From the NCBI GenBank assembly GCA_947624465.1, contig CANQKJ010000005.1, positions 1 through 28,751 on the forward strand: 28,751 bases of DNA. The letters are read 5' to 3'. The notes beneath the pieces were generated by a model, which made no database searches, was not told where the DNA came from, and was given only the letters and a program-made list of their open reading frames with translations. Source of the stretch: an uncultured Oscillospiraceae bacterium. Lineage in GTDB: Bacteria > Bacillota > Clostridia > Oscillospirales > Oscillospiraceae. The position numbers were made by a program, and so were the translations under genes. Shown one piece after another: positions 4,098 through 28,332 of this stretch. The first letter of the stretch is position 1; every line of letters starts with the position of its first letter.

Positions 4098-4171
4098 GAC
4101 AAGGCGTCACATATAAAATGATTCCGATGTTATAAGCTTTGGATCATTATCCGCAATTTCCAACTATTGTC

Positions 4172-4185
4172 GGAAGGGGGCTTCC
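4172..4185 (+). promoter_or_regulatory. Shine-Dalgarno of pilB inside a small hairpin
   Basis: GGAAG (4172-4176) pairs with CTTCC (4181-4185) around a GGGG loop, so the purine-rich ribosome site preceding the ATG at 4188 lies within a five-base stem. This site also decides the start: the frame is open from a TTG at 4167, but only the ATG at 4188 has a ribosome site at normal distance. Confidence 0.5.
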
Positions 4186-4187
4186 AG

Positions 4188-5882: not shown

Positions 5883-5901
5883 TGATGAAGGAGATTTGAC
5901 T

Positions 5902-8834: not shown

Positions 8835-8888
8835 TCGTCGACTTAATTCCCCCCCGGCGATGGGTTGCGCCGGAGCCCCCGGGTCCGG

Positions 8889-8922
8889 GGGCGGGGGTCC
8901 TTCGGAGGAAGGGCCCCCGCCC
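8889..8922 (+). terminator. Very stable hairpin after pilA, probable partial terminator or 3' stabiliser
   Basis: A 15-base arm (8889-8903) pairs with 8908-8922 around a GGAG loop with a single G-T pair; the arms are GGGCGGGGGTCCTTC and GAAGGGCCCCCGCCC. No T run follows, so it may slow polymerase or protect the upstream pilin message rather than stop transcription fully. Confidence 0.55.
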
Positions 8923-8956
8923 GCGGGCCTGGCGACGCGAAAACTATCGAAAAGAA

Positions 8957-8969
8957 GCGCCGGAGGCGC
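8957..8969 (+). promoter_or_regulatory. Shine-Dalgarno of pilD inside a GC hairpin
   Basis: GCGCC (8957-8961) pairs with GGCGC (8965-8969) around GGA, enclosing the GGAGG site that precedes the ATG at 8974. It may limit translation of the peptidase relative to the pilin. Confidence 0.4.
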
Positions 8970-8973
8970 GGAT

Positions 8974-10784: not shown

Positions 10785-11408
10785 TTGGCCGGCGCAGTCA
10801 CGGAAAAGAAGAAAAAGGACGAAGTTAAGCTTTCCGGAGCGACGTCTAAAAAGAAGGTGGAGCCCAGCAAGCGGACGCTGAACCTGGCGATCCGGGAGCG
10901 GCGGTACCCGGACCCCAAAAAGTGGATCCCGGGCGTGCTGGTGGTCATCATACTGGCGGCGCTTTTCTCGAAGTTCGCCGTGGTGGACCGCTACGCGAAG
11001 CTCAATGAGGCGGAGGCGGAGCTTGCGGGCAAAAAGGCGGAGCTGGCGGCGACGCAGGCCCAGTACGCCGACTATGACGAGGTCCGGGAGCGCTACAATA
11101 TGTACTCCTATGAGGGCTTCGACAGGACCATCGCCGACCGGCTGGACGTGATGGACCTTCTCAGGCGCGACGTTTTCCCGGTGTGCGAGGTCCAGGACCT
11201 CTCGGTGTCCGGGAAGACCATCAACCTGTCGGTCACGGATCTGAACCTCAGCCAGATCAGCCAGCTGATCGCGACGCTGGAGGGCGAGCCGATGGTGAGC
11301 AGCGTGACGGTGTTCACCGCCAGCGACGACCAGGAGGCCGTGACGGGCTCGGCGAGCCTCTCGGTGGAGCTCGTGGACGCCACAGAGGTGGAAAAAGAGG
11401 GGGAGTGA
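10785..11408 (+). CDS. pilN: Type IV pilus assembly protein PilN-like
   Basis: A 207-residue bitopic membrane protein with a Lys-rich cytoplasmic tail of about 45 residues, one membrane helix at about 48-66 (WIPGVLVVIILAALF), a coiled-coil stretch (about 70-95) and an extracytoplasmic alpha/beta domain. This is PilN topology, and it sits between pilM and pilO. The start is a TTG at 10785 with AGGAGG eight bases upstream; no ATG has a comparable site. The cytoplasmic tail is unusually Lys-rich and the classic PilN INLLP motif is not obvious (the nearest element is RTLNLAIRERR), so the name rests on topology and context. Confidence 0.78.
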   Translation: MAGAVTEKKKKDEVKLSGATSKKKVEPSKRTLNLAIRERRYPDPKKWIPGVLVVIILAALFSKFAVVDRYAKLNEAEAELAGKKAELAATQAQYADYDEVRERYNMYSYEGFDRTIADRLDVMDLLRRDVFPVCEVQDLSVSGKTINLSVTDLNLSQISQLIATLEGEPMVSSVTVFTASDDQEAVTGSASLSVELVDATEVEKEGE

Positions 11409-11414: not shown

Positions 11415-11993
11415 GTGAGCGATTTTATGAACCGGAGCTTTTCCCGGCGTGAAAAGCTGCTGCTGCTCGTTTTGGTGCTGATCCTGCTCGTGGGCCTCTA
11501 CTTCTATCTGGTACATTATCCCATCGTCCAGCGGCAGGATGAGATCGCGCTGGAGACCGACGACGTGCTGCTCCAGCAGGAGGTGGCAAACGCGCGGCTG
11601 CAGATGTATAATGAGATGAAGGATGAGCTGGCCATCGTGGACGCGATGCCCGCCGATCAGGTCACGAAAATGCCTGATTACGACAATATCCAGACGCTTA
11701 TGAACCTGTTCAACGTCATATTTGCCGGGACCCAGCAGAGCCTGAGCTTCGACAACGTGCGCGTCAACGACAACAACGTGGCCGAGCGCACCGTGCGGTT
11801 CAGCTTCACGGCGCGGGATTACGATCACGCCAGGCAGATCCTGGCGAACCTGACGGGCACGGGGTACAGGTGCCTGCTGGACTCCCTGTCATTTGAAGCC
11901 TCCAATGGCAGCGTGGAGACGGGAGAGCTCCGCGTGTCGGGAAATATCACCTTCTATGAGAAGGTGCCCGCCGGAAGCAGCCCTATTATGTAA
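11415..11993 (+). CDS. pilO: Type IV pilus assembly protein PilO-like
   Basis: A 192-residue bitopic membrane protein with a short cytoplasmic N-terminus, a membrane helix at about 14-33 (KLLLLVLVLILLVGLYFYL), a helical stretch and a ferredoxin-like C-terminal domain. It would pair with PilN to form the alignment subcomplex. The start is most likely the GTG at 11415, six bases after the pilN stop; an ATG twelve bases later is an alternative. Family assignment is by topology and gene order. No PilP or secretin gene follows, as expected in a monoderm system. Confidence 0.78.
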   Translation: MSDFMNRSFSRREKLLLLVLVLILLVGLYFYLVHYPIVQRQDEIALETDDVLLQQEVANARLQMYNEMKDELAIVDAMPADQVTKMPDYDNIQTLMNLFNVIFAGTQQSLSFDNVRVNDNNVAERTVRFSFTARDYDHARQILANLTGTGYRCLLDSLSFEASNGSVETGELRVSGNITFYEKVPAGSSPIM

Positions 11994-12259: not shown

Positions 12260-15200
12260 ATGAACGTATTTGGAAAAACCAATCGGAAACGGGGTTTCTC
12301 CCTGGTTGAAGTGATAATCGTAGTAGCTATCATAAGCATACTGCTGGCGGTAGCTGTGCCCAATGTCATCGCGTATTACCGGGAATTGAAGCTTGTTGAG
12401 CTTGATGACAGCGCCCGGACCATCTTCCTGGCCGCCCAGAACGAGATCTCCGCGATCCTGGCCGCCGACAAGGAAGGCGTGCCCGCAGGACATGATGGTT
12501 TCTGTAAATATTCCGAGGAGGTCGCCGGCGGCACCGTCGCCGACCGCACGAAGGTGGAATTTGACTATCTTAGTACCACTACAGACGCGGATAGTTTACA
12601 TAAGATCGTCCCGGCGGGGTCCATCGAGTCCGAACTCCAGAGGAACAATTATGTCGTAGAGTACAACCAAGAGACCGGCGCCGTCCATGCCGTTTGGTAT
12701 TGGGAGGGCGAAAGCAGCAAATTTACCTATAAGGACGACTATAAGCTTGAGGACACCGAAAAGAGCGCCCGTATCGATGTGCCCGTGGGTTACTACGGCG
12801 GCGAAGGTGTGGACCGTATCGCGGTCAATCAGATGCCTTTCCCCGAGCTCACGCTCATCAACGCCGAGGAGCTGCAACTGACGATCCAGGTCCCCGCGAT
12901 CACCGGCACATCGCTTACTAATAATAATATCATGGTAGACGTCATGGTCAATGGCACGCCTATTATCAAAGGTGCGAACCTTTGGGACGGTGACGCTCCC
13001 GGTATCGTCGTGCTTGATACGCTCAAGGTTTACCCTGATACGGAGGTGGCCCCTACCGCTCATTCCTGGACTGTGGGCAGAAAGTTCAAGGATTGGGTAA
13101 AGGATTATCCCGACATCAAACCCGGCGACAACATCACGGTAAGTGTGAAGCTGTATTATAACGGGACCGTGGGAACTGGCGCCGACGCGAAGGCGCTCAT
13201 TCCGCAGGTGGTGTCGGTGGAGACGAACAGCCTGTTCGCGAACGTGACGGATAACGGCACCGATAAGACCGCGGAGATCGCCTACGGGCGGCATTTGCAG
13301 AACCTGGATACTGCTACCTCCGGGGTGACGAACGCTATCACCGCTGCCGAGCAGACGCGGGAGATCGACTTTGCCAAGCCGAACGGAACTTTCGATACTA
13401 CCTCTCACACATTCACGCCCGGTAAAGATTCCGATGATATCAAATTCTGGGCGAATACTTACGGAAAAGTAGATGAAACCAGCGGTACAGTTTCTGACCT
13501 GAGACAGTTCACCGCCATCTACAACAACGCCCTGAAATCCTACGACGGGCGTAGTCTGCCCATCCGCAATCTGGACGCGAAAGAGAACACCGATGCGACA
13601 GGGCATATTACCGATGCCGGCCTGTTTGCCTATATCGAGGGCGCTGAGCTGAAAGACATCACGCTCATCAACGCCAAGGTCGAGGGTGACGGCAGCGTGG
13701 GCGCCCTTATCGGCGCGACCACCGACACCGTCAACGTGAGCGGCTGTAAGGTCTATCTCGAAGACTATCCTGTTGCTACGCCTCCTGCGCCTACGCTGAT
13801 CGATCCGTACATCACGAGCAACAGCGGCAACGTCGGCGGGCTGATCGGCAGCGCCGGTGGGACCGTCACTATTTCGAACAGCTTTGCCTCTACGATTGAG
13901 GAGGGCACCAGCAATGTTGGCGGACTTGTGGGCTCGGCGAACGCAACCACCACCATTACCGGCTCCTACGCCGCCGGGTATATCGACAGCGCGGTCACGG
14001 CGGGCGGCCTGGTCGGGAATGTTGACGCGGCAGCAACATCTTTGAGCATTTCCAACTCCTACGCGGCGGGCATTATCGCCAACGCCAGCGGCTCCGCCGG
14101 CGGCCTGGTGGGAAATAACAGCGCCTCCGCACCCCCCACCGTGAACGGCGGCTCCTACGCCGCCGTGCGGTATGTGGTGCCTGCGACGGGAGCAACGTCC
14201 ACGATTTACTACGGCACTTTCAGCGGGGACATGGCGAATTACTACGTCACCCAGAGCGGCGTGACGTATGCGCCGAATTCCGGCAAGGCCACGAACACTG
14301 ATGAGCTCAAGAACCTTGTCAAGACTCCAGATGCGAACTTTAGCGACACCGTTTGGAACGTCGGGTCCGGCGTGACAAACGACCCCGCGAACACCCATGC
14401 CTATAAGCTGCTGGACGTGACCAAGGATCTGGACACGTACCCCTACCCGATGCTCAAGGGCACGACGAGCACCGGTAGTGCCGTCATGCCCCAGTACGGC
14501 GACTGGCTGGAGGACGTGGACGTGGAGGGCGTGATGCTGGCGTACGTCGAGCAGTACGCTGACAACTCCTACGGCATTTACGCGGCGAAGGCGGCCAGCG
14601 CGGCCGGTACAGACGCGACCGATGTGAAGAATAAGCTTGCGCCAGATAAAATCGTGGTGGATGACTTCTACCGGATCGTGAGTCCCGATGCGGCGCTGGG
14701 CGATTTGACTGGTTGGAAATTTACGCTGGATGGTGATACGACTCCACATGACCTTACTGAGGACGGAGCGCATAAGACCATCGAGATCGGCGGAACTACA
14801 TACTATTGCTATACGCTGGAAGCCACCGGCTGGGACAGCGAGAAGAATTACTATCATGAGATCAAATTTGACGGTCAAAAATTGGCGTTTATTTACAACG
14901 CGTCCTTCGCCTGCGAGGCGTTCGACGTGACGGAATTCGTATATCCTGCGGCCGGCGGAACTGTCACGGTTGATACTGCAACGATCCGCTCAAAGCCGGA
15001 GATGAAATCCCATATTACCATCGGAACACTTGATGATACGGACGTGTTTATCAGGTCCGCGCGTCAGCTTGCCAATATTCAGAAGTATACCACGGACACG
15101 AGCGCGCCGCAGGACGCGGCGGGAAGTGCCGTGGGGCTGGTCTGGAAGTATGACCAGCTGGCGGATATCGTGTTCAGCGGCGCCGACGGGTACACCGGCG

Positions 15201-18200
15201 GCGGGCTCACCGTGGGCAAGGAGAGCGGCGCGCCGCTGACGCCGGCGAAGCTGACGACGGGCAGCTATTACGGCCACGAGAAGGAGATCAAGAACCTCTA
15301 TATCGGTACCGCGACAGATGGCGCGGGGCTGTTTGAGAGCGTCGGCGCCGGCGGCAGTCTGAAGGACATACGCCTTGTCAATGTGTCCGTGGCGGGCGGC
15401 GACGCCGCCGCCACCGGCGGCCTCGTGGGAATACTGCGTGGCACGGTGGAAAACTGCGGCATTTACGTGGAAAGCGGCACGGGTATTGATGTTGATAAGA
15501 ATTACAACGAGACCTGGACCGTCACCGGCTCCGGCGCTAACGGCGTGGGCGGACTGATCGGTGACATCGACAACAACGCGGAAGTCAAATTGTCCTTCGC
15601 TGCGGTGAAGGTCAACGGCACCGGTGCGGATGGCACCGGCACAGGCCCCACCGGCGGATTTGCGGGACAGATCCATAGCGCAACGGTCAGCAACTGCTAC
15701 GCCGGCGGATATGTGGAAGAGGATCCGACGACAGATAAGCTTACATATCTGGATACGAGCGTCAACGTGACCGGCGGTGGAAACGTGGGCGGATTTGTGG
15801 GCAGTGTTGCCACCAGAGCTGCCTTGTTCAGCGGAATAGACTACTCCACCGCCTCCGTGGGCGGCCCCAATCACGACCAGCTCGGCCTTTTCGCCGGCGC
15901 GGTTGCTACTAATTTCAGCGTTGACAAAACAGCTGTTATGCTCAACGCCGTCGCGAAAGCGTTCAAGGCTGAAACGACTGGCAGCACGACGACCTACACC
16001 GCCGAAGCGCCCAGGGACGAGTCTGACTATATGGGCGGCACGGCGACCGGGGAACCCACGGTCACAGCCGAGCCGTACAATCAGACGGAGACAACATTCC
16101 CCTATCCCTCCGGGCAGAAGGTACACCACGGCGACTGGATCAACGTCGAGGCCATGGGCCTCTACTATGACACGGTGGGCGGCAAGATGGGCTACTACGC
16201 CAACGGCGGTAATGTGGCTGGCCTTGATGCGCTTGCCAGCGGTACGCCGGGGAATAAGGATTACACCACGAACGACGGGTATATGTTCGTGACAGCGGAT
16301 GACCTGGGCGAGATCAGCATCAGGGTCGGAGAAGAGAGCTTCCTGATGGAACCTGAGCGGCTCACTTCCACAATGACAATCGACGGCAAAGACTACAATT
16401 ACAAATACGAGGTCCCCGCTGAGGCGCTGAATACACCGACGGCAAATTATTACAACGCGGTGAGCATCAACGGGCGGATCTTCTATGCCAATTTCGGCAT
16501 GGCCTGCGAGATCTTCGACAGCGTAGAGGACCCCAACAAGCCAATGGCGAAGAAGGGAATCGACGGGCTGGCCGATCCTTACGAGGGCATCGTGGTGAGG
16601 TCCGCGCGGCAGCTGGCAAATATTGGTATCCGGTCCAACGTGGGCGAGTATAACAGCATAAACACCAAGGTCTACACCAAGGAAGCCGAGGCCATCCAGA
16701 AGTCCGCGATCAGCCAGGTGCTGGATATCGATTACGCGAAGTATGCCGAGGACACCAAGTATATGAACGCGGGTGAAGAAGCTACCAAGATGCCCAAAGC
16801 GGTGGTGCTTGATGGGAGCAACAGTAACGCCAACCACACGCCCATCACGATCAACGGCGGCAGCTATGACGGGCACAACTATGAGATCCGGAACCTCGTG
16901 CCCGGCATGATTCGGCAGATCACGAGCGTCAGCGGCACAACTGCCAGCGAGGTCCAGATCCAGAGCGGCCTTGTGGGCAGGATCACCGGCGGCAAGATCG
17001 AGAACGTCACGCTGATCAACGCGACGGTGGTGAATAACGCAAAAGCAGCCGTCGATGCCAGTACGACAAGCGGCAGCGGCGGCGGAGCCGGTGGTGGCGG
17101 CGGAAGCACCGGCACAAGTGTGACACATACAATTAAGGATTTAAATTGGCTGGCTGGAACTGGTGTTGCTGACCCTGGAGCGGGCAATAATGCATCAATG
17201 GACGGTAAGACTGCTACATATACTGATGCAAATGGATTTAAATTCACTGTTGTGTGGGGGAATAGCGGCAGGTTCGAGCATACCAATACAACGTATAATT
17301 TTGATGGCTGTAACACAAAGTGCAGAATTTATTTTAATAATAGTATTAGCAGTACTGGTAACTACATTACCTTTGAAACTACTCATAAAGCAACAGTTAA
17401 GGTCTGGTGGACGGCTGGCGGAAATACCAATGAGCGGGCTGTCAGCATTTTAAGCTCAACGAGTAGCAGGGATGCAATCAAAACAGATTCTACATCATCA
17501 GGTGGAAATAGGTTATTAACATGTGAGGTAGAACCTGGAACATATTATATTGGGTGTACAAACAGAAGTAACTACATCTTGCAAGTTGATGTCATTGAGG
17601 ACATCACATCTACTTCCGGCGGTGGTGGTACTACTGGCCCCACTACGCCCACCGATCCCGGCGAGGATAAGTTCCCGGAGGGTGTCGATTCCAATAAATT
17701 CAAGGTCCGCTTCGGCGCGCTGGCGGGCGCGGTGAACCCGGCGAATAAGACGCCCAACGAGGTAACCATCACCAACTGCGGCGTGTACGTGGAGCCGGAG
17801 ACAACTCCGGCCGATACTGATGCCTACACAACTGCCTACAACAAGTACTCCGTACAGAACACCGCAACCACCGGGTTCAAGGAGGACACCGTGGGTGGTC
17901 TTATCGGCATGGCCACAGAGGGCACGACGATCGATAAATGCTATGCCGCGGTGAAGGCCGCGGGCGCATACTCCGTCGGCGGATTCATCGGACATCTGAA
18001 AGACGCGGCGGTTAGCAACTGCTACTCCGGCGGACATACGGAGCGCGGCATTTACAGCACCACCGATTACAACGTGACGGCGAACAACGTGGAATCCGGC
18101 GCGGCGGGCGGCTTTGCGGGGATCATCGAGGCCACCAAGGAGAGTAAACTGTCATTCGGCGGAGTCTGCTACTCCACCAGCTCCGCGTCCTGCCCGGCTA

Positions 18201-21200
18201 ACGAGGATAACAGCGATGAAAAGGGCACTGTCGGCAACTTTGCCGGCCTTATCAAGGACACCACAGGCAATTGGCAGGGCTTTAGGGGCGCCAACATTTA
18301 CGGCATCGGCACCATGAACGGCGACAACCGTACCGACGAGCGTGAGTATCTGGACCGCACGGTTACCATGCACGCATATCAGTTTACAGCAATCAGCGCC
18401 AATCCTTATGATATCGATGTGCTGGCAGACACAGGCACGGGGGATCCGATGCAGTACCCGTATCAAACGTGGGTAGAGCAGACGATCCACCACGGCGACT
18501 GGCCCATGCGGTATAACCTTGTGTATTATGAATTGTACAAGGAAAAGGGCGACGACTACGAGGACAGTTACGGGAATAAGCTCACAAATAAAGTTATAGA
18601 GTTGACGGGCGGCGACGTGTTTAACACTGGTGCTTCGTACATCGGATTTTACGGCGTTTTCCCGGCGGCGGCAAGCGGTTCAGCGGCAGGAGATTACAGA
18701 GTGGTGAACACGCTGCGAGTGGACGGGTATGTCTACAAGAGCGGATACATCGTGGTGAGCGACGCCGATGTGGCCACTATGCGCCTTGACATCAACTCCT
18801 ATTATGCAAATAGCGATGAGAGAGAAGATAACCCGGATATTGATTATGATGCGAACGGCGTAACCCAGCCCACACATACCACAGTCGCTCAATGTGAACA
18901 GAGAATCGATTTCAGTAAATACCAAATCCTTAATAAGGATGATGAGTTGAAAGAAGCAGTAGATGAGCTTGGCAGGTACGGGTATGTCCTGCCGGACGTG
19001 ACGCTGAACGTGGCGGCGTCTGAGCACTTCTACATGGACACGCAGATCAACGGCCAGACGTATCTCTTCAACCCGCAGTTCCCGTATGAGGCGGTCAACG
19101 TCGACATCGAAAGGAAAGTTTCCGGCAAGTGGGAAATCGATTACGAGACCATCAGGGTGAAGCACGAGATCAACTATGTGGAGATCGAGCCGGATGGGAA
19201 CGAACTCCTTCACACCAAGGCGGAAATTGACGATATCATTGTCCGCAGCGCGCTGAACCTGGCCGGTCTTACACGGTATTCCCGGGAGGCCAATAACGGG
19301 AAAGTAAAGAACGAGATCATAAAAGGTGATTTCGTTCAGCACATGGACATTGATTACAATGAGTATGAGCCAAACACGATCTATGACGGAAACACAAAGA
19401 ACAGGGATCCGGCGCAGGAAAAAGACGCTGATAAAGATGCATTGGGCAACCCGAAGTTCGAGTATTTTACCGGGTTGGACGGCTATGGCCAGGCGCCCGC
19501 CATTCTCAACGGCGGTTCCTACAACGGACTCAATCACACCATTAAAAATCTTAATCTGAGCAACGACTCCACCAAGAACCAGTATGTGGGCCTGTTCGGG
19601 CAGCTTCTGGGCGGCGCGACAGTCGAAAAGCTGAAGATGGAGAATGTTACAGTTGATTGCGGCACGCTGGGCAAGCAGGGGGGCGACCAGACGGCCAATG
19701 TCGGCACGCTGGCGGCGGTCGTCAACGACGCCACGATCCGTAATGTCGAAATCAATGATGTGACGTTTAATCTTGATGATATAGCGATTGCATATGACAG
19801 CGAGGATAACGTCATTGATGGACTGTCGTTTGAGGGCGTCGGCGGCGCGATCGGCAAAATCAACGGTAAAGCCACTGTTTCCAATGTGACGATCACCGAT
19901 CCCACGATCACGGTTGAAACCGATGCTGGGAATAACGGCGAGCCTCTCTACGTCGGCGGCGTGATCGGCTCGGCGGACGGGACGTACAGCACTTACAGCG
20001 CTACCGCCACGGAAGGCGCCCGCCCGGTGTCCATCACCGAATCCGGCGTGTATATCAGCGAGGATAACAAAGACGACTTTATCGACATGGGCGTTAAGGT
20101 CACCGGGTCGGTCACCGGCGACAAGGTCGGCGGCTTCGCCGGGTTCCTGGGCAAGGGCGTCAACGTGACGGGGGACTACTCCGCCATCCGCGTCCAGGGC
20201 GAGAGCCTGGTGGGCGGCTTCGCGGGGCATATCCAGGGCTCCCATGTGGAGAACTGCTACTCCGGCGGGTACATTGAGGCCGGCGACTACTCCACCAGAA
20301 ACTACAACGTGACCGCCGCCGACACGTCCAGCGGCACGGCCGGCGGGTTCGCGGGCAAGATCGAGGTCGCATATGCGTCCGGCTCCAGAGAGTCCATGGC
20401 GATGTACATGACGGGCGTGAACTACACCACCAGCTCCGCCAGCGGCAAGACTGTCGGCAGATTCGCCGGCGAATTCTCCGCCAGCGACGCCACGGCGCTG
20501 AATACGAAGATGGGCGCCAAGGCGCCGGAGAACTACGCCGGAGGGAAAGTGGCCGAAACCGCCACCGTCACCATTAACAAGGAGCCCACCGTCAAGACCG
20601 GCTCGGCCATGCCCAGGCAGGATAATAAGTCCGGGTTTACTACCGTGCCGTATAACGCCTCGGACGACTTCCCCTATGCCACGAACCTTAAGGCGCACCA
20701 CGGCGACTGGATCGAGGCGCCTCTGAACGCCGCGGGCTATTGGGAGGTCGAGGACGGACTTCTCAGGCTGTGGTATATCCCCTCCGACACGCCGGACGCG
20801 CCGGTGGAGCTGCTGGAAGAGGACGCGCTGAAAGAGCAGCACGCGTTGGGCTTTGACCACGACAGCCGGGACGCCGTGGGCATCACGGAGTCCGGGTACT
20901 TCGTCGTGTCGTCGGATACGGCGGCGACGTTCAATGTGCCTACCGGCCTGACTGAGTTGAATACAGCTACCGTCGGCAGCACAGGCGAGAAGATCAGAAA
21001 TCTGCTGGGCGGCAGCACGGTGGCGGTCCAAGCTTACGAGCTGCATAGCGGCAAGAGCAATAATCAGAAGTGGACGGTAGGCGGCGAAGAATTCACCGTC
21101 AATCCGGCGTACGGTATGGCGATAAAGCACGGCGATCACACCTCCGAGATGGGCACCAGCGCGGCGGAGGCGTATCAGATCCGCACGTTGGCGCAGCTGC

Positions 21201-24200
21201 AGAATATCGGGGACAGCAACGATAAGCACTTCAAGCAGACCCACGACATTAACGGGGCTGGTAAAACGTACACGAGCAACACGAACTTCGCCGGACACTA
21301 CGACGGAGGGTTCTATCGCATCTTAGACCTTACCATCAATGGCGGTGGGTTGTTCGACGTGGTCAAGGGCGACAGCGTGTTTGAAAACATCATCCTTTAC
21401 TCGCCTACGGGTGCGGGGAAAATCACTAACACCAGTATTTCCGCCAGCGGAATACTGAAGAGCACCGAGGGAGCGTCCGCAACGATCAGGAACTGCATCG
21501 TGGCGGGGTATACAATATCCACCGACGGTAACGGTTGCGCGGGCGGCCTGGTTGGGCATCACTATCAAGGTACTCTTACCATCGAAAACTGCGAGACCAC
21601 AGTTGATTTGTCATCTGCTCGGAGTACGGGCGGACTTGTGGGGCTCGCGGATGCGCCCGGCACATTGACCATCACAAACAGCTACGCGGGCGGTAAGATC
21701 ACCGGTGGCGGCAGCGCCGGCGGCCTGGTGGGCGCGGCGGGTAATACTGCCACGGTCACCTATCAGGACGTCTACTCCTATGTGGATATGAAGGATAGCG
21801 GCGCTAACACCTACTACGGCATCGGCCCGGGCAAGGTGGATCCGAAGAGCGTACTGCACGAGTACTGGAGCACTGGCCTTGACGGCAAGACGGCCTCTGA
21901 CGCCGACGCAAGCATCAAGGGCGTGTCCCTGGCGCAGATCAAGCTCGACACCCAGGCGCTGAACACTGTCACCAACAGCGTGTCGGCGGAGGAGTTTGTG
22001 GTTCCCGACGCGACCGCCAGGGCAAAAGGCCTCGAGAACAAGGTCGCGGGCAAGACGACCGACGCGGATAAGTTCGCCCAGTTCCCGTTCGCGGCGTTCG
22101 CGACGGACGAGGGGGGCAAGAACTACCACTATGGCGAGGTGCCCGAGGCGCAGTACGTGGGCCTGTTCTACTGGGAGAAGGAAACCATCAAGTACGCTGA
22201 CGGCAGCCCGGCTAAGGAAGAGTACCACTACTACGCCCACGGCGGAGAGATCGTTGACGGCAAGCTGTACGGCCAGAAGGTGCTGCTGGATTCGCTGTGC
22301 TACGACCACCACCTGGACGGCGAGCGCGCGAGCATCACGGATTACGGGTACGGCGTGTTCAATACGGACCCGAGTAAGGCGGTGACGGTGAAGAAGAACG
22401 GAGGAACGGCCCAAGCCATTACAGGCCTTATCGCTACAGCCGAGACCATCAAGAAGGGCCTTATCAGCGCGCTTTGGCCGGATGGAACGGTCACGGATGC
22501 TCAGGCGTATGAATTGCCGTCCTCTACGGGTGACGCTATTGATGAATGGACGTTGGGTGGCGTTGGCTTTACAGGCGCCATTAGGGCCTATCCGGCGTTC
22601 GGCGCGGCAATCAGCGATAAATTCGGAAACGGAAATGACGACGGTTCGTCTGCGGATGACGGTATGGGCTCGCCGAACACTGGGATCCCGATCCAGATCC
22701 GCACGATCGAACAGCTCAAGAATCTTGGAAGTATGGGCGGTGGTAAAAAAATTGCGTATTTCGCCATCACGCATGACATCGATGGCGAGGTAGTAACAGA
22801 CTTTAAGCCTATTACCAACGATATTGAGCTGTTTGACGGCAACGGGTATAGGATCCTTGATTTGAACATTGAGCCGACAAGTGGCAACGCGGCGCTGTTT
22901 GACAATATGACGCAAAAGCCGACCATTCAGAACGTGATCCTTTATTCCACTAACGGCAAGGGAGAGATCACGTCTACGAACGGTAACGCAGCCGGAATTG
23001 TTGCTGAATCAACTAATGTGACAATAGACAAGTGCGTGGTCGCGGGTTATACCATCACCGGCGCAAAGACTGTCGGCGGAATCGTGGGCAGTGTTACAGG
23101 GGACAAATCCGCAATTACCAATTCGCAGGCGGTAGTCAACCTCAAGGGCACGGAAAGTAGTGTTACCAACATTGGCGGCATTGCGGGCGTGTTCCGCGGG
23201 AAAGCTACTGATGATTATGGCATTACGAACTGCTACGCCGGAGGAACAGTGACCGAAGCTGGAATCAGCGCCACGGTTGGCGGCATTGCAGGAGGTGTGA
23301 ACAACAACCTTTCTATCACGAACAGCTACTCCTTCATGGATTTGAAGAACACGGGCGCGGGCAATGGGAAGGTCTACGCGATTTGCAAGGAAGCAACATC
23401 TACTGACGGCTGCTACTACCTGGCTGAATACCTGCCGACTGGCGCGAACGAACAGGGCACCAAGCAGACCTTCGAGCAGATGTGCGGTAAGCAGGGCGAC
23501 GACAAAGCCGCCTATGTGTACGTCCCGAACGCGGACGACCAGATGGACGGCCTCACGAGCTGGGGCGCGGGAGCGTATCCCATGGCCGCCACGGTGAAGG
23601 TCGGTGTCCGCGCGGGCGTTGATAAGGGCGTCGACGAGACCGGCGACGTGCTGGTCCACTACGGTGACTGGCCGTACAGCACCCGGGCCGCGGGTATCGC
23701 GTACTACGAGGTGGCGGGCGGCGAGTATTCCATCCAAGCCGTATACATCGACTATGCCGGTAAAGTGAAGACCTACAAGGACACACTCTGCGCTGATCAC
23801 CATGTGGACAGTGCGACCGGCGCGATCGGGGAGCACAAGATCACCGACAGCGGGTATGTGATCTTCAGCACCAATAAGGATATGAAGATCGGCACGGAGA
23901 GCGAAGTCTATAAAGGGCAGGATGAGGTCACAATTCAGGCTAATAGGGCTGCTATCATTAAAGCCGTCAACGAAAAGCTGAAGGTGTGGTGCCAGGCGGA
24001 CGACCCGGACGTGAAGGTGTACTCCAACGCGAACTTTAATGAAATTACGATCGACAACGCCAGTCAAGCCAATTTGGAAAAATACAGCAATCTGGACGCC
24101 AAGTACACCGTTACGCACGACGGGAAGACTGAGGATATCTACTGCAATCCCGGTATGTCCGGCGTGTCGGACAAGGCGTTTAAGGGTAGTGGTAACGCCA

Positions 24201-26056
24201 TTGAGATCCGCACGGTGGAGCAGCTGAACAACATTCCGAACCGCGGGAAGGGAACCGGCACGAGCGTGCCGGATGACCCAACCAGCGGATATGTCTTCAA
24301 GCAGACGCATGACATCTACGGCGCGGGTTACAACACGTACACCGGCGCGGCGAGATTCGCGGGGACCTACGACGGACAGCACTACAAGGTGCTTGACCTG
24401 AGTATGAGCGGGAAGGACACGGATGTCGGACTGTTCGCGAGTATCAACGCCGAAACCTGTGAGCTTCGGAACATCATCATGTACGCACCCAACGGGGCGA
24501 CGATCACCGGCACCGGAACCGAGGGGAAAGATGCTGCGAACGATCATTACGGCGTTGGTGGATTGGTCGGGTCGATCGGTGACGGCGGTACTAGCAAAGC
24601 GGCAGCGATTGAAAACTGTGTTGTGGCCGGGTATCAGATCAAAGGCGCGCAGTACGTAGGCGGGCTTATCGGATGGGGCTACCACGGAGCCGACATCAAG
24701 AACTGCGCGGCCGTGAACGACATCGAGTGCACAACGATTGCCGCTAAGAATGACAATGGCGCGGATAATTGCGGCGCGGGCGGCATCCTGGGCGGATATG
24801 GAAGAAACAGCACCAAACAGACAGAAATCACCAACTGCTACTCCGGCGGGACGATCAAAGTGAGCGGTGATAGTGCCGCAAACGCCGTTGTGGGCGGCAT
24901 TGCCGGGAAAGATGGAGGCAGTGGTAAAAATAAATCTGCCCTTGTGAAAAACTGCTACACCTACGTTGACCTGAGCGGGTGCGCCAAGGCGAAGGTTTCC
25001 GCGATCAGCTCGACCGAAAACTCGGACAACAAGGACAACTACTACCTGAACGACAGCGCGCGCGTTCCCGCCTGGGTGCACAAGCAGGGCGAGGCCAAGG
25101 AGTACGGCCAGCTGGTGGCAAGCATCTTTGGAACTACCACCGATTTCGGTACGGCCTCGAAGAGCTACGTGACCAAGGACAAATCCGCCGGAACAGGGAC
25201 CGGCAGCGGCATGACGCCGCAGGCCAGTACAAACAACTTCCCGTTCCCGGCATTGCAGTTCAACGGCGCCTATGTCCACTACGGCGATTGGCCGGCGAAC
25301 AACACGGCGGCGCCCAGCAGCTACCCGTGGACTGACGGAGAGATTGGAGTGATCTTAGGATATTCTACAATAAGTACGTTCAGCAGCAGTACGGACGTGG
25401 TTGCGCAGATGTTTAACAACGACCACACCCGTGTGCAAATGATCGGATCGGCAGCGACAAACAAGACCAAAATCAACTACATAGGATTGGTGTTAAAAAC
25501 TGTTGCCGCCGGTCACGAGGATGAACTTAAGAACAGCCTGAAAGTGTTGTATTATTCGTCTGGCAGCTACACAATCGACAATACCGGAAAAGTATTGACG
25601 GTCACGAAAGCGCCCACATCGTTCTATCAGTACGACGGAAAAGAAGTTACTGGTTATAGTAATGCAACAGCCTTTAGCGCTTATAAACTGTATGGCGCTG
25701 CACCTGGAACAACAATTGATGACAGCGGACTCCTTGTTCTCGTATACGACTCGGCTATGGAAAAATCTTCAACGTCAATCTCAAAGGACAACATTGTGGG
25801 TTGGGTCACGGTCAGCGATCATAAAACCGCTCCGGCTGGTTCTTCCGGCGCCCCTGCCCTCCCCGACGGCCCGGAGATCTTTGACGAGCCGTCCACGACC
25901 CCCGCGTCCACGGCCCCGGCCGACCCCGCCCCCACCGAGGGGGCCGGGGCGCCGGAGCCCTCGGCTCTGCCGCCCGCGCCGGTCAAGACGGCGGAGCCGC
26001 AGGCGTCCTCTGAGCCGGGGGCCGACCCCGAAACGCAAGGAGGCGGCGAGGAATGA
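12260..26056 (+). CDS. Giant modular type IV pilin-like surface protein with GLUG repeats (4598 residues)
   Basis: The N-terminus MNVFGKTNRKRG is a 12-residue class III leader. It is followed by FSLVEVIIVVAIISILLAVAVP with Glu5, so PilD should process it and the helix should pack into the pilus. After a pilin-like head (to about residue 180) and a beta-rich stretch, the protein has seven Gly-rich GLUG-type blocks (residues 341-749, 930-1293, 1445-2081, 2327-2817, 2973-3294, 3479-3804, 3982-4344). Each begins with an RxxxQLxNI-like motif and ends with HxGDW or a variant. GGLVG/GGFAG and NCYSGG/NSYAGG motifs recur throughout. Between blocks lie six copies of an unrecognised domain. The C-terminus has a low-GC domain and a Pro/Ala/Glu-rich tail with no LPXTG motif. 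The ATG at 12260 has GAGGTG six bases upstream. GLUG repeats are known from secreted and adhesin proteins; a role as a pilus-borne adhesin is inferred. Confidence 0.88.
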   Translation: MNVFGKTNRKRGFSLVEVIIVVAIISILLAVAVPNVIAYYRELKLVELDDSARTIFLAAQNEISAILAADKEGVPAGHDGFCKYSEEVAGGTVADRTKVEFDYLSTTTDADSLHKIVPAGSIESELQRNNYVVEYNQETGAVHAVWYWEGESSKFTYKDDYKLEDTEKSARIDVPVGYYGGEGVDRIAVNQMPFPELTLINAEELQLTIQVPAITGTSLTNNNIMVDVMVNGTPIIKGANLWDGDAPGIVVLDTLKVYPDTEVAPTAHSWTVGRKFKDWVKDYPDIKPGDNITVSVKLYYNGTVGTGADAKALIPQVVSVETNSLFANVTDNGTDKTAEIAYGRHLQNLDTATSGVTNAITAAEQTREIDFAKPNGTFDTTSHTFTPGKDSDDIKFWANTYGKVDETSGTVSDLRQFTAIYNNALKSYDGRSLPIRNLDAKENTDATGHITDAGLFAYIEGAELKDITLINAKVEGDGSVGALIGATTDTVNVSGCKVYLEDYPVATPPAPTLIDPYITSNSGNVGGLIGSAGGTVTISNSFASTIEEGTSNVGGLVGSANATTTITGSYAAGYIDSAVTAGGLVGNVDAAATSLSISNSYAAGIIANASGSAGGLVGNNSASAPPTVNGGSYAAVRYVVPATGATSTIYYGTFSGDMANYYVTQSGVTYAPNSGKATNTDELKNLVKTPDANFSDTVWNVGSGVTNDPANTHAYKLLDVTKDLDTYPYPMLKGTTSTGSAVMPQYGDWLEDVDVEGVMLAYVEQYADNSYGIYAAKAASAAGTDATDVKNKLAPDKIVVDDFYRIVSPDAALGDLTGWKFTLDGDTTPHDLTEDGAHKTIEIGGTTYYCYTLEATGWDSEKNYYHEIKFDGQKLAFIYNASFACEAFDVTEFVYPAAGGTVTVDTATIRSKPEMKSHITIGTLDDTDVFIRSARQLANIQKYTTDTSAPQDAAGSAVGLVWKYDQLADIVFSGADGYTGGGLTVGKESGAPLTPAKLTTGSYYGHEKEIKNLYIGTATDGAGLFESVGAGGSLKDIRLVNVSVAGGDAAATGGLVGILRGTVENCGIYVESGTGIDVDKNYNETWTVTGSGANGVGGLIGDIDNNAEVKLSFAAVKVNGTGADGTGTGPTGGFAGQIHSATVSNCYAGGYVEEDPTTDKLTYLDTSVNVTGGGNVGGFVGSVATRAALFSGIDYSTASVGGPNHDQLGLFAGAVATNFSVDKTAVMLNAVAKAFKAETTGSTTTYTAEAPRDESDYMGGTATGEPTVTAEPYNQTETTFPYPSGQKVHHGDWINVEAMGLYYDTVGGKMGYYANGGNVAGLDALASGTPGNKDYTTNDGYMFVTADDLGEISIRVGEESFLMEPERLTSTMTIDGKDYNYKYEVPAEALNTPTANYYNAVSINGRIFYANFGMACEIFDSVEDPNKPMAKKGIDGLADPYEGIVVRSARQLANIGIRSNVGEYNSINTKVYTKEAEAIQKSAISQVLDIDYAKYAEDTKYMNAGEEATKMPKAVVLDGSNSNANHTPITINGGSYDGHNYEIRNLVPGMIRQITSVSGTTASEVQIQSGLVGRITGGKIENVTLINATVVNNAKAAVDASTTSGSGGGAGGGGGSTGTSVTHTIKDLNWLAGTGVADPGAGNNASMDGKTATYTDANGFKFTVVWGNSGRFEHTNTTYNFDGCNTKCRIYFNNSISSTGNYITFETTHKATVKVWWTAGGNTNERAVSILSSTSSRDAIKTDSTSSGGNRLLTCEVEPGTYYIGCTNRSNYILQVDVIEDITSTSGGGGTTGPTTPTDPGEDKFPEGVDSNKFKVRFGALAGAVNPANKTPNEVTITNCGVYVEPETTPADTDAYTTAYNKYSVQNTATTGFKEDTVGGLIGMATEGTTIDKCYAAVKAAGAYSVGGFIGHLKDAAVSNCYSGGHTERGIYSTTDYNVTANNVESGAAGGFAGIIEATKESKLSFGGVCYSTSSASCPANEDNSDEKGTVGNFAGLIKDTTGNWQGFRGANIYGIGTMNGDNRTDEREYLDRTVTMHAYQFTAISANPYDIDVLADTGTGDPMQYPYQTWVEQTIHHGDWPMRYNLVYYELYKEKGDDYEDSYGNKLTNKVIELTGGDVFNTGASYIGFYGVFPAAASGSAAGDYRVVNTLRVDGYVYKSGYIVVSDADVATMRLDINSYYANSDEREDNPDIDYDANGVTQPTHTTVAQCEQRIDFSKYQILNKDDELKEAVDELGRYGYVLPDVTLNVAASEHFYMDTQINGQTYLFNPQFPYEAVNVDIERKVSGKWEIDYETIRVKHEINYVEIEPDGNELLHTKAEIDDIIVRSALNLAGLTRYSREANNGKVKNEIIKGDFVQHMDIDYNEYEPNTIYDGNTKNRDPAQEKDADKDALGNPKFEYFTGLDGYGQAPAILNGGSYNGLNHTIKNLNLSNDSTKNQYVGLFGQLLGGATVEKLKMENVTVDCGTLGKQGGDQTANVGTLAAVVNDATIRNVEINDVTFNLDDIAIAYDSEDNVIDGLSFEGVGGAIGKINGKATVSNVTITDPTITVETDAGNNGEPLYVGGVIGSADGTYSTYSATATEGARPVSITESGVYISEDNKDDFIDMGVKVTGSVTGDKVGGFAGFLGKGVNVTGDYSAIRVQGESLVGGFAGHIQGSHVENCYSGGYIEAGDYSTRNYNVTAADTSSGTAGGFAGKIEVAYASGSRESMAMYMTGVNYTTSSASGKTVGRFAGEFSASDATALNTKMGAKAPENYAGGKVAETATVTINKEPTVKTGSAMPRQDNKSGFTTVPYNASDDFPYATNLKAHHGDWIEAPLNAAGYWEVEDGLLRLWYIPSDTPDAPVELLEEDALKEQHALGFDHDSRDAVGITESGYFVVSSDTAATFNVPTGLTELNTATVGSTGEKIRNLLGGSTVAVQAYELHSGKSNNQKWTVGGEEFTVNPAYGMAIKHGDHTSEMGTSAAEAYQIRTLAQLQNIGDSNDKHFKQTHDINGAGKTYTSNTNFAGHYDGGFYRILDLTINGGGLFDVVKGDSVFENIILYSPTGAGKITNTSISASGILKSTEGASATIRNCIVAGYTISTDGNGCAGGLVGHHYQGTLTIENCETTVDLSSARSTGGLVGLADAPGTLTITNSYAGGKITGGGSAGGLVGAAGNTATVTYQDVYSYVDMKDSGANTYYGIGPGKVDPKSVLHEYWSTGLDGKTASDADASIKGVSLAQIKLDTQALNTVTNSVSAEEFVVPDATARAKGLENKVAGKTTDADKFAQFPFAAFATDEGGKNYHYGEVPEAQYVGLFYWEKETIKYADGSPAKEEYHYYAHGGEIVDGKLYGQKVLLDSLCYDHHLDGERASITDYGYGVFNTDPSKAVTVKKNGGTAQAITGLIATAETIKKGLISALWPDGTVTDAQAYELPSSTGDAIDEWTLGGVGFTGAIRAYPAFGAAISDKFGNGNDDGSSADDGMGSPNTGIPIQIRTIEQLKNLGSMGGGKKIAYFAITHDIDGEVVTDFKPITNDIELFDGNGYRILDLNIEPTSGNAALFDNMTQKPTIQNVILYSTNGKGEITSTNGNAAGIVAESTNVTIDKCVVAGYTITGAKTVGGIVGSVTGDKSAITNSQAVVNLKGTESSVTNIGGIAGVFRGKATDDYGITNCYAGGTVTEAGISATVGGIAGGVNNNLSITNSYSFMDLKNTGAGNGKVYAICKEATSTDGCYYLAEYLPTGANEQGTKQTFEQMCGKQGDDKAAYVYVPNADDQMDGLTSWGAGAYPMAATVKVGVRAGVDKGVDETGDVLVHYGDWPYSTRAAGIAYYEVAGGEYSIQAVYIDYAGKVKTYKDTLCADHHVDSATGAIGEHKITDSGYVIFSTNKDMKIGTESEVYKGQDEVTIQANRAAIIKAVNEKLKVWCQADDPDVKVYSNANFNEITIDNASQANLEKYSNLDAKYTVTHDGKTEDIYCNPGMSGVSDKAFKGSGNAIEIRTVEQLNNIPNRGKGTGTSVPDDPTSGYVFKQTHDIYGAGYNTYTGAARFAGTYDGQHYKVLDLSMSGKDTDVGLFASINAETCELRNIIMYAPNGATITGTGTEGKDAANDHYGVGGLVGSIGDGGTSKAAAIENCVVAGYQIKGAQYVGGLIGWGYHGADIKNCAAVNDIECTTIAAKNDNGADNCGAGGILGGYGRNSTKQTEITNCYSGGTIKVSGDSAANAVVGGIAGKDGGSGKNKSALVKNCYTYVDLSGCAKAKVSAISSTENSDNKDNYYLNDSARVPAWVHKQGEAKEYGQLVASIFGTTTDFGTASKSYVTKDKSAGTGTGSGMTPQASTNNFPFPALQFNGAYVHYGDWPANNTAAPSSYPWTDGEIGVILGYSTISTFSSSTDVVAQMFNNDHTRVQMIGSAATNKTKINYIGLVLKTVAAGHEDELKNSLKVLYYSSGSYTIDNTGKVLTVTKAPTSFYQYDGKEVTGYSNATAFSAYKLYGAAPGTTIDDSGLLVLVYDSAMEKSSTSISKDNIVGWVTVSDHKTAPAGSSGAPALPDGPEIFDEPSTTPASTAPADPAPTEGAGAPEPSALPPAPVKTAEPQASSEPGADPETQGGGEE
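13280..14506 (+). repeat. GLUG block 1 of the giant pilin
   Basis: Residues 341-749, from AYGRHLQNL to QYGDW. It contains GLFAYIEGAELKDITLINAKV and repeated GGLVG / NSYAAG units. The entry motif is the most diverged of the seven. Confidence 0.75.
15047..16138 (+). repeat. GLUG block 2 of the giant pilin (A-type)
   Basis: Residues 930-1293, from FIRSARQLANI to HHGDW. It has the A-type ending: NCYAGG, then a NVTGGGNVGGF segment and a final DYSTAS...LGLFAG unit. Confidence 0.8.
16592..18502 (+). repeat. GLUG block 3 of the giant pilin (A-type, interrupted)
   Basis: Residues 1445-2081, from VVRSARQLANI to HHGDW. It is the longest block because a Gly-linker-bounded domain of about 165 residues interrupts it. 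The A-type ending NCYSGG...GGFAG...YSTSSAS...GNFAG is intact. Confidence 0.8.
17070..17665 (+). other. AT-rich domain inserted between Gly-rich linkers in GLUG block 3
   Basis: A linker reading GSGGGAGGGGGSTGTS enters it and one reading SGGGGTTGPTTPTDPG leaves it. Between them are about 165 residues with Trp/Tyr-rich beta-strand character, with segments GNYITFETTHKATVKVWW and GTYYIGCTNRSNYILQVDV. The pattern resembles jelly-roll carbohydrate-binding-like modules on extracellular clostridial enzymes; this is a resemblance, not an assignment. Base composition drops sharply: 16 of the 60 bases at 17281-17340 are G or C. It looks like a separately acquired module. Confidence 0.7.
19238..20710 (+). 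repeat. GLUG block 4 of the giant pilin (A-type)
   Basis: Residues 2327-2817, from IVRSALNLAGL to HHGDW. The entry motif has diverged (ALNLAGL for ARQLANI). The A-type ending NCYSGG...GGFAG...NYTTSSAS...GRFAG is clear. Confidence 0.8.
21176..22142 (+). repeat. GLUG block 5 of the giant pilin (B-type)
   Basis: Residues 2973-3294, from QIRTLAQLQNI to HYGEV, where the usual HxGDW ending has become HYGEV. It has the B-type order: FKQTHDI, NFAGHYDGG, ILYSPTGAGKI, IVAGYTIS, GGLVG, NSYAGG, then a VYSYVDMKD segment and a short Tyr/Trp tail. Confidence 0.8.
22694..23671 (+). repeat. GLUG block 6 of the giant pilin (B-type)
   Basis: Residues 3479-3804, from QIRTIEQLKNL to HYGDW. It shows the same B-type order as block 5: FAITHDI, ILYSTNGKGEI, VVAGYTITGAKTVGGIVG, NCYAGG, then NSYSFMDLKN. 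Confidence 0.8.
24203..25291 (+). repeat. GLUG block 7 of the giant pilin (B-type)
   Basis: Residues 3982-4344, from EIRTVEQLNNI to HYGDW. B-type: FKQTHDI, ARFAGTYDGQHYKVLDLSM, IIMYAPNGATI, VVAGYQIKGAQYVGGLIG, NCYSGG, NCYTYVDLSG. Confidence 0.8.
25292..26053 (+). other. C-terminal domain and Pro-rich tail of the giant pilin
   Basis: After the last HYGDW comes a unique domain of about 170 residues encoded by AT-richer DNA (to about 25830), containing TKINYIGLVLKT and SGLLVLVYDS strands. A strongly GC-rich stretch then codes for a tail of about 70 residues rich in Pro, Ala, Ser, Thr and Glu. There is no LPXTG sortase motif and no C-terminal hydrophobic anchor, so attachment should be through the N-terminal pilin helix. 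Confidence 0.65.
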
Positions 26057-26757
26057 AGCGACTTGTGAACAAGCTGCGCTCGAACGGCGGCGCGACGATC
26101 CTGTTCGCCATACTGGTCTTTATGCTCTGCGCCCTGGTAGGCACGGCGGCGCTGACGGCGGCGGCGGCGAACTCCGGGCGGTATACGCACATCAAGGCGG
26201 AGCAGCAGGCGTACCTGTCCATGGCCTCGGCGGTGAACCTCATGCGCGATGAGCTGGTGGGCAAGACGTTCAAGGCCGAAGCAACGAAAGAGACGAAGAG
26301 CGCGCCGGGAAGCGCACCGATAGGGACATGGCAAATACCTGATTACGAATACGACGGGGGCATCAGCGGACAGCTGCTGGAGGCCCTTGAGGCGTGTTAC
26401 CTCGATAAGCTCAAAAGTTATACTGACACAGCCGGTCTCACCCCAGTAACGCCGCCCACTTACCCGGTAACGCTGAAATTCACCACCGAGGACGAGGACA
26501 TAGACAAGTACCCGGTCACGGCAAGGCTTACGGTAGATAAGGATTTCAACATCACGGTGCAATTTCTCTTTATGAACGGTACCGATGAGATCAAGGCTTA
26601 CCGTACCGATATGAACATCCGCACCGCCGTTCCCGTCATAACCACGGCAAGCACGAGCAGCACCGATGGCACGGGGACGACCACGACCACCACCACTTAC
26701 ACCATGGAGGTCACGTGGCTGGAAAAGAATACGACGATCATAAGGGAAAACGCTTAA
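26053..26757 (+). CDS. Minor pilin, PilX/GspK-like
   Basis: A 234-residue protein with a leader MKRLVNKLRSNGG and hydrophobic helix ATILFAILVFMLCALVGTAA. If cleaved after Gly13, residue +5 is Phe, not Glu. Loss of Glu5 is characteristic of GspK-type pseudopilins that cap the fibre tip. A helical stretch with HIKAEQQAYLSMASAVNLMRDEL follows, as in PilX-like proteins, then a domain ending in a Thr-repeat tract (26671-26700) and a last strand. Its ATG overlaps the stop of the giant pilin gene (ATGA at 26053-26056), with GGAGG just upstream, so the two are probably translationally coupled and likely act in the same assembly. Confidence 0.72.
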   Translation: MKRLVNKLRSNGGATILFAILVFMLCALVGTAALTAAAANSGRYTHIKAEQQAYLSMASAVNLMRDELVGKTFKAEATKETKSAPGSAPIGTWQIPDYEYDGGISGQLLEALEACYLDKLKSYTDTAGLTPVTPPTYPVTLKFTTEDEDIDKYPVTARLTVDKDFNITVQFLFMNGTDEIKAYRTDMNIRTAVPVITTASTSSTDGTGTTTTTTTYTMEVTWLEKNTTIIRENA

Positions 26758-26772: not shown

Positions 26773-27084
26773 ATGAAGAGGGCCGTAAATAAGCTGCGCT
26801 CGCGTCTGGGCGAGACCTTCGTTGAGGTGCTGGTGGCGCTGCTGATCGTGGGGCTGGCGACGATGCTGCTGGCGTCAATGGTCACGGCCTCCGGGAGCAT
26901 CGACGCGAACACGAGAGAGCAGGACGTGGGATTCTACAAGGCGGTCAGCGACTTGGAGTCCGGCAGCGCGACGTCCACAGCAACAGGCCAAGTGACGGTG
27001 GATTGGGGCGGCGCCACGGTCACTGTAGGTAATGTGACCATATACGAGCAGGACGGCCTCAAGGCATGGAAGGTGACGCCATGA
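26773..27084 (+). CDS. Small minor pilin with prepilin leader
   Basis: A 103-residue prepilin-like protein. Leader MKRAVNKLRSRLG is followed by ETFVEVLVALLIVGLATMLLASMV with Glu at +5; the +1 residue is Glu rather than the usual Phe or Met. The mature protein is only about 90 residues with a small beta-rich domain, resembling GspI/PilV-type minor pseudopilins in size. GGAGGG lies six bases before the ATG. The leader is close to those of its two neighbours (shared NKLRS), suggesting duplication of pilin genes. The gene overlaps the next by ATGA. Confidence 0.78.
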   Translation: MKRAVNKLRSRLGETFVEVLVALLIVGLATMLLASMVTASGSIDANTREQDVGFYKAVSDLESGSATSTATGQVTVDWGGATVTVGNVTIYEQDGLKAWKVTP

Positions 27085-27593
27085 AGAAGCTGCGGTCGAG
27101 AGGCGGGTTTTCCCTGCCCGAGGTGCTGCTGGCGGTGGCGCTGCTGGCGATCCTGGCGGCGGGCTCCGCGGTGGCGTCGGGCGTGCTCATAAGCACGCGG
27201 AACGGCATGATCCAGACCGCCGACGCCCAGGTAGTGGGCGGCACGGTGATGGAGTCCATCGCCGGAGAGGTGCGATACGGGCTGAACATGACGTCATCGG
27301 GTACCGGTGAGGACGAGGTCATCACCTTCGACAGCGCAGTCTTCGGCCCCGGGACGACATTCGAGAAAAAGGGCGGTCGTGTCAAAGCCAAGTCCGAGGT
27401 ATCAGTAGAGCCCTACGATCTCCTGCCGGAAAAAGCGTACAACGGCCTTGACGTGAAGGTAACGTTAGCCAAGGACAGCACCGACATGGTGAAGATTTCC
27501 GTGACGGTCGGGAAGCTTGGGAGCGATGACAAATTCATCAAGACGCTATGGAACGGTGAGATGAAAGTCAAGCCGCTGAACGGGATCAATTAG
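27081..27593 (+). CDS. Minor pilin, GspJ/PilW-like
   Basis: A 170-residue prepilin-like protein. Leader MKKLRSRGG, then FSLPEVLLAVALLAILAAGSAV with Glu at +5. The globular part is beta-rich (residues about 60-165), of a size fitting PilW/GspJ-type minor pilins. The ATG at 27081 overlaps the previous stop (ATGA) and has GGAAGG upstream; an ATG at 27066 is also in frame but lacks this spacing. With its two neighbours it would form the initiating tip complex. It is the last gene of the cluster, followed by a terminator. Confidence 0.78.
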   Translation: MKKLRSRGGFSLPEVLLAVALLAILAAGSAVASGVLISTRNGMIQTADAQVVGGTVMESIAGEVRYGLNMTSSGTGEDEVITFDSAVFGPGTTFEKKGGRVKAKSEVSVEPYDLLPEKAYNGLDVKVTLAKDSTDMVKISVTVGKLGSDDKFIKTLWNGEMKVKPLNGIN

Positions 27594-28320: not shown

Positions 28321-28332
28321 GGACGACCCTCC

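Follow-up and report, generated by a model that had tools for sequence, protein, structure and literature searches.

Modular type IV pilins, in which an adhesive module is grafted onto a pilin module, are described for Streptococcus sanguinis, where PilB carries a vWA domain and PilC a lectin domain and where tip placement has been proposed from models (passages of PMC8179133 and PMC9934059). Modular pilins turned up in both monoderms and diderms in an InterPro survey, which included an IPR012902-IPR011493 architecture and took IPR011493 as an M26 peptidase (Raynaud 2021); in the passages of that survey considered here, the most extreme named multi-domain case was 860 residues long and contained another motif in 12 copies, and neither a giant pilin nor the head family described below appeared. 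Here we analyzed a 28,751-nucleotide stretch (the window) of an uncultured Oscillospiraceae bacterium (contig CANQKJ010000005.1), which encodes a 4598-residue prepilin (the giant) within a type IV pilus gene cluster. Like S. sanguinis PilB and PilC, the giant joins a pilin module to a grafted, putatively adhesive part in a monoderm pilus system, but its computed mass is 483 kDa compared with 50.5 kDa for S. sanguinis PilB, and it carries seven blocks instead of one module. The diderm tip adhesin PilY1/PilC is likewise described as a large effector that minor pilins present at the tip; it is not a pilin, however, whereas effector and pilin form one chain in the giant.

Modular pilins form an established class, and the IPR012902-IPR011493 architecture has been surveyed, so the kind of protein is already known. 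No giant or GLUG-containing pilin was found in titles, abstract starts and passages of PMC8179133, PMC10191384, PMC9934059 and PMC6916266, and titles and abstract starts reported no invertible promoter before a type IV pilin gene. Thus, as far as the literature was searched, the following are new: the size of the giant, a head family whose members form a ladder of block numbers, evolution as a mosaic, and a second copy's promoter switch.

A 13.8-kb frame encodes a prepilin with a conventional pilin module

The giant gene (12260..26056, plus strand) runs for 4598 codons without a stop from ATG 12260 (alternative GTG 12251) to the stop at 26056, confirming the uninterrupted 13.8-kb frame reported in the first-pass annotation. 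ttgaggtgatctgg precedes the ATG, and the stop codon overlaps the ATG (26053) of the next gene by 4 nt. The product starts with MNVFGKTNRKRG^FSLVEVIIVVAIISILLAVAVP, in which FSLVE directly follows the leader MNVFGKTNRKRG (12260..12295). A leader ending in Gly, a hydrophobic stretch and Glu5 were all present, as in class III prepilins, and the N terminus was matched by Pfam N_methyl (PF07963; E 2.1e-7, residues 8-32) and, above the model cut-off, by the NCBIfam prepilin model TIGR02532; the class III leader with Glu5 claimed at first pass is therefore borne out. PilD is predicted to cut before Phe (codon 12296), which would make codon 12308 Glu5 of the mature form. Apart from this N-terminal one, no membrane-like stretch was found in the giant.

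An AlphaFold2 model showed a 55-residue alpha-1 helix (residues 15-69; 12302..12466) followed by strands, matching the extended alpha-1 of about 50 residues and beta-sheet head of pilins. The head sheet and a beta-sandwich domain, delimited by sequence comparison and the model, occupy about residues 97-340 (12548..13279); the model is of low confidence in part, with residues 79-92 under 50. The head domain terminates in a conserved NSLFA...RHLQNL and defines the family described below. PDB sequence matches of the giant to other pilins were confined to alpha-1 stretches. Thus, a conventional pilin module of leader, 55-residue alpha-1 and small head is seen in both sequence and model, and it carries about 4400 residues made up of beta-sandwich and linker domains plus the seven GLUG beta-helices.

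The gap before the gene (11994-12259) resembles by eye that of another family locus, L042, with TTATGTAAAC-like repeats and a hairpin GGGCCGACAAAAGTGTCGGCCC. Positions 12070-12180 within it fold better than shuffled sequences (z -3.8), and no Rfam family was detected in the gap. An upstream riboswitch was considered and dropped, as the sole Rfam match in the whole window was sub-threshold, implausible and located elsewhere.

The assembly that contributes the window, one of its 278 contigs, is 78% complete, which raises the question of whether separate genes were fused in a metagenome-assembled genome (MAG) by misassembly or by chance, the artefact that the first-pass annotation had been wary of. 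Eight close relatives of 4491-5306 residues, however, lie on other contigs and are colinear with the giant at 43-57% identity, an identity that excludes chance as the source of the frame. Their coverage thins locally: two bins of P0013 fall to 30-31%, and values in the last bin, which is partial, are 1-81%. Large members occur in isolate genomes as well, L067 (2417 residues) being one. These colinear relatives and isolate members refute misassembly or chance fusion, to which we assign practically no weight.

The arm consists of seven GLUG blocks separated by linker domains

Pfam GLUG matched the giant (E 4.4e-7), but Pfam alone passed just two stretches. We therefore built a block profile on the first half of a block and rebuilt it once from its own hits, those of the giant included. 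It returned eight envelopes that correspond to seven blocks, as envelopes 1446-1629 and 1846-1944 (the latter weak, 13 bits) both belong to block 3, which is split by an insertion. The seven GLUG-type blocks with linkers proposed at first pass were thus recovered. Each block has an IRSARQL-like motif at its start and an HYGDW-like motif at its end, and the linkers span roughly 150-250 residues each.

From the N terminus, block 1 (residues 340-750; 13277..14509), supported by motifs, the block profile and AlphaFold2, is followed by linker 1 (residues 751-930, mostly strands; 14510..15049), block 2 (residues 931-1293; 15050..16138; motifs, block profile, a second structure model) and linker 2 (residues 1294-1445; 16139..16594; motif boundaries). 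Block 3 (residues 1446-2081; 16595..18502), placed by the block profile and by alignment with relatives, contains the insertion at about residues 1630-1845, flanked by Gly-rich and Thr/Pro stretches; a piece covering residues 1600-1830 had no significant Pfam or PDB sequence match. Linker 3 (residues 2082-2327; 18503..19240; motif boundaries) precedes block 4 (residues 2328-2817; 19241..20710) and linker 4 (residues 2818-2971; 20711..21172), both set by motifs and the block profile, and then come block 5 (residues 2972-3294; 21173..22141; block profile, its end placed by eye at an HYGE-like motif) and linker 5 (residues 3295-3479; 22142..22696). Block 6 (residues 3480-3804; 22697..23671; motifs, block profile), linker 6 (residues 3805-3982; 23672..24205; motif boundaries) and block 7 (residues 3983-4344; 24206..25291; Pfam, motifs, block profile) lead to a C-terminal domain with a Pro/Glu-rich tail (25292..26053). 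A beta-helix rises about 0.48 nm per coil, which would give the seven blocks with their linkers a combined length of tens of nanometres.

The beta-helix resembles IgA1 proteases and pectate lyases, and a sub-threshold Peptidase_M26_N match was found, so that the giant could be read as a pilus-displayed enzyme, either an M26-like peptidase or a polysaccharide lyase. The peptidase match, however, falls on the GLUG beta-helix, a fold that also serves as a non-catalytic adhesin scaffold. HExxH, the zinc site of M26 peptidases, is absent from the giant, and the five-letter motif occurs in 4 of 64 family proteins; a catalytic M26 reading is thus not supported. The lack of HExxH and the pilin N terminus also set the giant apart from M26 IgA1 proteases and BACOVA_03286 (3n6z). 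There is accordingly a slight chance that it acts as an enzyme. IPR011493 is, we presume, the InterPro entry for GLUG. On that assumption, the surveyed IPR012902-IPR011493 architecture resembles the giant in joining N_methyl to GLUG.

The giant belongs to a family of large pilins

A search with the 497 N-terminal residues, in which the 1326 best candidates were scored and proteins of 0.55-1.75 times the query length were covered, retrieved 64 proteins (query included) of 2539 to 5534 residues, the lower limit being set by the tool; 12 have at least 4000 residues. The prepilin motif was recognized by pattern in 55 of the 64, while eight of the other nine start inside the motif and one deviates at position 4. 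A head profile (A2) starting at residue 41, and so leaving out the hydrophobic first part of alpha-1, detected 113 relatives in genome contigs; the locus counts below refer to the best 80 of these. The hosts are Oscillospiraceae, Lachnospiraceae, Erysipelotrichaceae, other Clostridia and a few Coriobacteria-type MAGs, and the isolates include Granulicatella balaenopterae (DSM 15827, L067), [Clostridium] aminophilum (L070, L073), Emergencia timonensis, Clostridium fessum and Oscillibacter valericigenes. Two loci were obtained from some of the MAGs. Thus, the giant is no lone oddity but a member of a family of large and giant pilins, mostly of gut Firmicutes.

Frames that bear this head range from 431 residues, with one block, to 5534 residues. 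Among 66 stop-closed frames, 45 exceed 1000 and 26 exceed 2000 residues, with a median of 1763 (lengths measured stop to stop). Block number tracks length (r 0.83 over 131 proteins, some genes being present in both collections): one-block proteins (n=21) have a median of 763 residues, and those with seven to ten counted blocks (n=11) have 4491-5534. Exceptions are P0022, with 5147 residues and three counted blocks, and three frames with none (two of L088, one of L121). The head (residues 41-352) had no tblastn match at 1e-5 in plasmid and phage records, which argues against a mobile origin.

Two loci are recorded separately. L088:9791-18111 of Aminicella lysinilytica holds two head-bearing large proteins in tandem, no block being counted in either and the second having no evident prepilin Gly-Phe motif. 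L076:9821-12340 is a head-bearing frame of 839 residues.

Genes of the family mostly lie beside type IV pilus genes

The window holds, on the plus strand, genes in the order PilB, PilT, PilC, PilA-like, PilD, PilM, (PilN), (PilO), the giant, and K-, I- and J/H-like pilins, so that the monoderm set of PilB, PilC, PilD, PilM, pilins and a second, PilT-like ATPase forms one cluster. PilB (4167..5882; T2SSE, MshEN) is the extension ATPase, and PilT (5896..6957; T2SSE) the retraction ATPase, told from PilB by size and position. PilC (6994..8208; T2SSF) is the platform, and a 161-residue protein (8349..8834) is the likely major pilin. PilD (8740..9750, likely ATG 8974; A24_N_bact, Peptidase_A24) is a prepilin peptidase with a methylase domain, and PilM lies at 9780..10769. 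The gene order given at first pass, with the giant between pilO and three minor pilins, holds, but some of its names are less firm. PilN (10785..11408), without a family hit, and PilO (11415..11993; T2SSM 7.7e-4, below cut-off) are named by position, and the K-like (26053..26757; GspK, NCBIfam 5.6e-4) and I-like (26773..27084; GspI, NCBIfam 0.0053; N_methyl 0.014) minor pilins rest on weak matches; the J/H-like one (27066..27593) matches N_methyl at 8e-6.

As the K and I matches, weak as they are, are to GspK and GspI models, the giant might be a pseudopilin, part of a cargo-pushing filament of the secretion type and not of a retractable pilus. A PilT-like second ATPase and PilM are present, however, and no secretin was found among the 16 window frames scanned, the rest of the genome not having been searched for one; we consider the chance of a pseudopilin very slim.

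Core type IV pilus genes were found at 51 of the 80 loci and K/I/J-like pilins at 60, with one or the other at 69. Other prepilins of more than 2000 residues with such blocks do co-occur with pilus genes, as the first-pass annotation had suggested checking, and its central proposal, a giant modular pilin in a monoderm-type pilus cluster, is well supported.

Several observations weigh against reading the giant as a pilus-borne adhesin. At 11 of the 80 loci no pilus gene was found; eight of these have a flank with under 3 kb of sequence, whereas L049, L054 and L076 showed no pilus gene in longer flanks, for L076 of about 8-10 kb on either side. Five family copies (on the own genome's contig C2 and at L049, L051, L054 and L145) lie behind a recombinase gene and, in the sequence available, apart from pilus genes, and therefore a role outside pili is possible. 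The K/I/J labels in relatives were assigned by phmmer with the window's minor pilins (E 1e-5) and may partly reflect alpha-1. Pieces taken from the head, the C-terminal domain, three of the linkers and the insertion in block 3 gave no significant Pfam match. No LPXTG-type anchor was found in the last 300 residues of the giant, though pilins are expected to have none. Moreover, presence is patchy: the head was found in 24 of 297 genomes of the order (90% completeness or better, 52-row profile) and in 3 of 199 phylum-wide genomes (7-row profile, less sensitive), the own genome included in both. A figure of 21/99 is not used as prevalence because many of its matches span alpha-1 only.

In line with the copies away from pilus genes, the giant could be a surface adhesin that uses its prepilin N terminus as membrane anchor or export signal and never polymerises into a pilus, and such large subunits may not fit a filament shaft. 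Nevertheless, 69 of 80 loci have pilus-core or minor-pilin genes, conservation extends beyond the leader over the pilin head, and placement at the tip requires no packing in the shaft. An adhesin outside pili thus seems unlikely, and we favor a pilin.

The arm is a mosaic

Trees of eight segments from a nine-protein alignment conflict on the nearest relative of the giant, with supports of 0.98-1.0. In the head segment, it groups with P0005 and P0007 (71 and 70% identity; next 48%). Its nearest relative is P0007 in segment 1446-2820 (63-68%; P0005 37-38%), P0016 in segment 3301-3800 (67%; P0007 36%), and P0008 and P0016 in segment 3801-4345 (64 and 66%; P0007 46%). The head split and the last-block split are incompatible under any root. 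The trees of segments 350-930 and 2821-3300 are less trustworthy because their tree sisters, P0011 and P0019, are not the most identical sequences.

A second giant pilin lies behind an apparently invertible promoter

The own genome carries a second giant pilin on contig C2 (L006), 61% identical to that of the window over the head. It consists of two long frames (L006:2389-11880, minus) with the frame lost between them, which could be an artefact or a true break. Second giant pilins behind a serine recombinase gene were found at L006:2389-12618 (minus), L049:5744-10263, L051:604-6511, L054:9091-15157 and L145:1598-7672; no other counterpart of the window's eleven pilus genes was detected on the whole of contig C2 or around the other four. 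Like the window's genome, the MAGs of L049, L051 and L054 have a further giant pilin next to pilus genes (L042, L061, L045; matched by record names), and the L145 genome (G385) has a 5261-residue frame on another contig.

In C2, the recombinase gene ends about 120 bases upstream of the prepilin start, and 28-base inverted repeats, one inside the recombinase 3' end, bound an 88-base segment with a promoter-like element (TTGAAT-17-TATAAT). The other four copies share this layout, and the repeats pair at 25/28 positions in the own copy, 20/28 in L049, 22/28 in L054 and 25/28 in L051. When orientation was compared between the genomes of the five copies, the promoter pointed toward the pilin gene in the own copy and L054, and away from it in L049, L051 and L145. 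Among the own copy, L049, L051 and L054, opposite-orientation pairs aligned with scores of 100, 45, 102 and 58 inverted versus 18, 14, 16 and 20 direct, and like-orientation pairs with 67 and 56 direct versus 22 and 20 inverted; L145 versus the own segment gave 62 inverted and 30 direct. A recombinase, inverted repeats and both segment orientations, as in an invertible promoter, were thus found across genomes at the second copy, and judging from these sequences DNA inversion seems to switch some of the family copies. An opposite-strand promoter-like pair in L049 (toward the pilin) and in L054 speaks against a simple on/off reading. The arrangement resembles Mpi-type serine-invertase switches in its inverted repeats around a promoter-like element and in the match of the L145 recombinase to the Mpi family model (3.5e-13, far below the model cut-off), and differs in sitting before a giant pilin gene. 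No matching 9-base core was found in the window, and so no such switch at the window's own locus. Together with block shuffling between lineages, the apparently invertible promoter of the second copy suggests that selection favors variation of the exposed arm.

Matching sites also occur elsewhere. L147:3397-10947 has the same recombinase type and such sites upstream of a SpaA-type sortase pilus operon (vWA protein, LPXTG pilin, sortase). In L146:4-5000, L148:922-4123 and L149:1876-4325 (all minus), they adjoin a gene of the TnpB family, after which comes a flagellin-like gene, the recombinase being seen in L146 alone and flagellin in L148 and L149 being judged by eye from the frame start; perhaps a TnpB-derived regulator and flagellin are switched there.

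A possible retractable adhesive arm

We conclude that the giant is probably a minor type IV pilin, likely located at the tip, that bears a long multivalent adhesive arm. Sec would insert it N-in/C-out and PilD would trim the leader; alpha-1 may then pack with the K/I/J pilins of the neighbouring genes at the growing tip, as their adjacency suggests. The beta-helix string would hang outside as an adhesive arm, consistent with its fold and block shuffling, and PilT could pull the filament back. In a monoderm there is no secretin in the way, and such bulk may be tolerated for that reason. More tentatively, and with somewhat less than even confidence, we propose long-reach, retractable adhesion in gut Firmicutes, in which giants of up to about 5500 residues arise by block shuffling between lineages, a second, unlinked giant is switched by inversion, and one machine presents alternative arms.

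If so, type IV pilus subunits can reach some 30 times the size of ordinary pilins, which bears on how pilins of monoderms exit the membrane and get through the wall, and giants of this kind are predicted to be rare in systems that have to pass a secretin. The family, large and apparently uncharacterised, would provide gut bacteria with candidate adhesins for host, mucin or fibre; its members in isolate genomes could be tested, and the switch would let populations vary their giant adhesins.

Flanking genes

The cluster is flanked by housekeeping genes (window 748-3654 and 27685-28572): those for a MurJ-like flippase, MazG and HU and, on the minus strand, those for a formate/nitrite transporter and an S4-domain protein.
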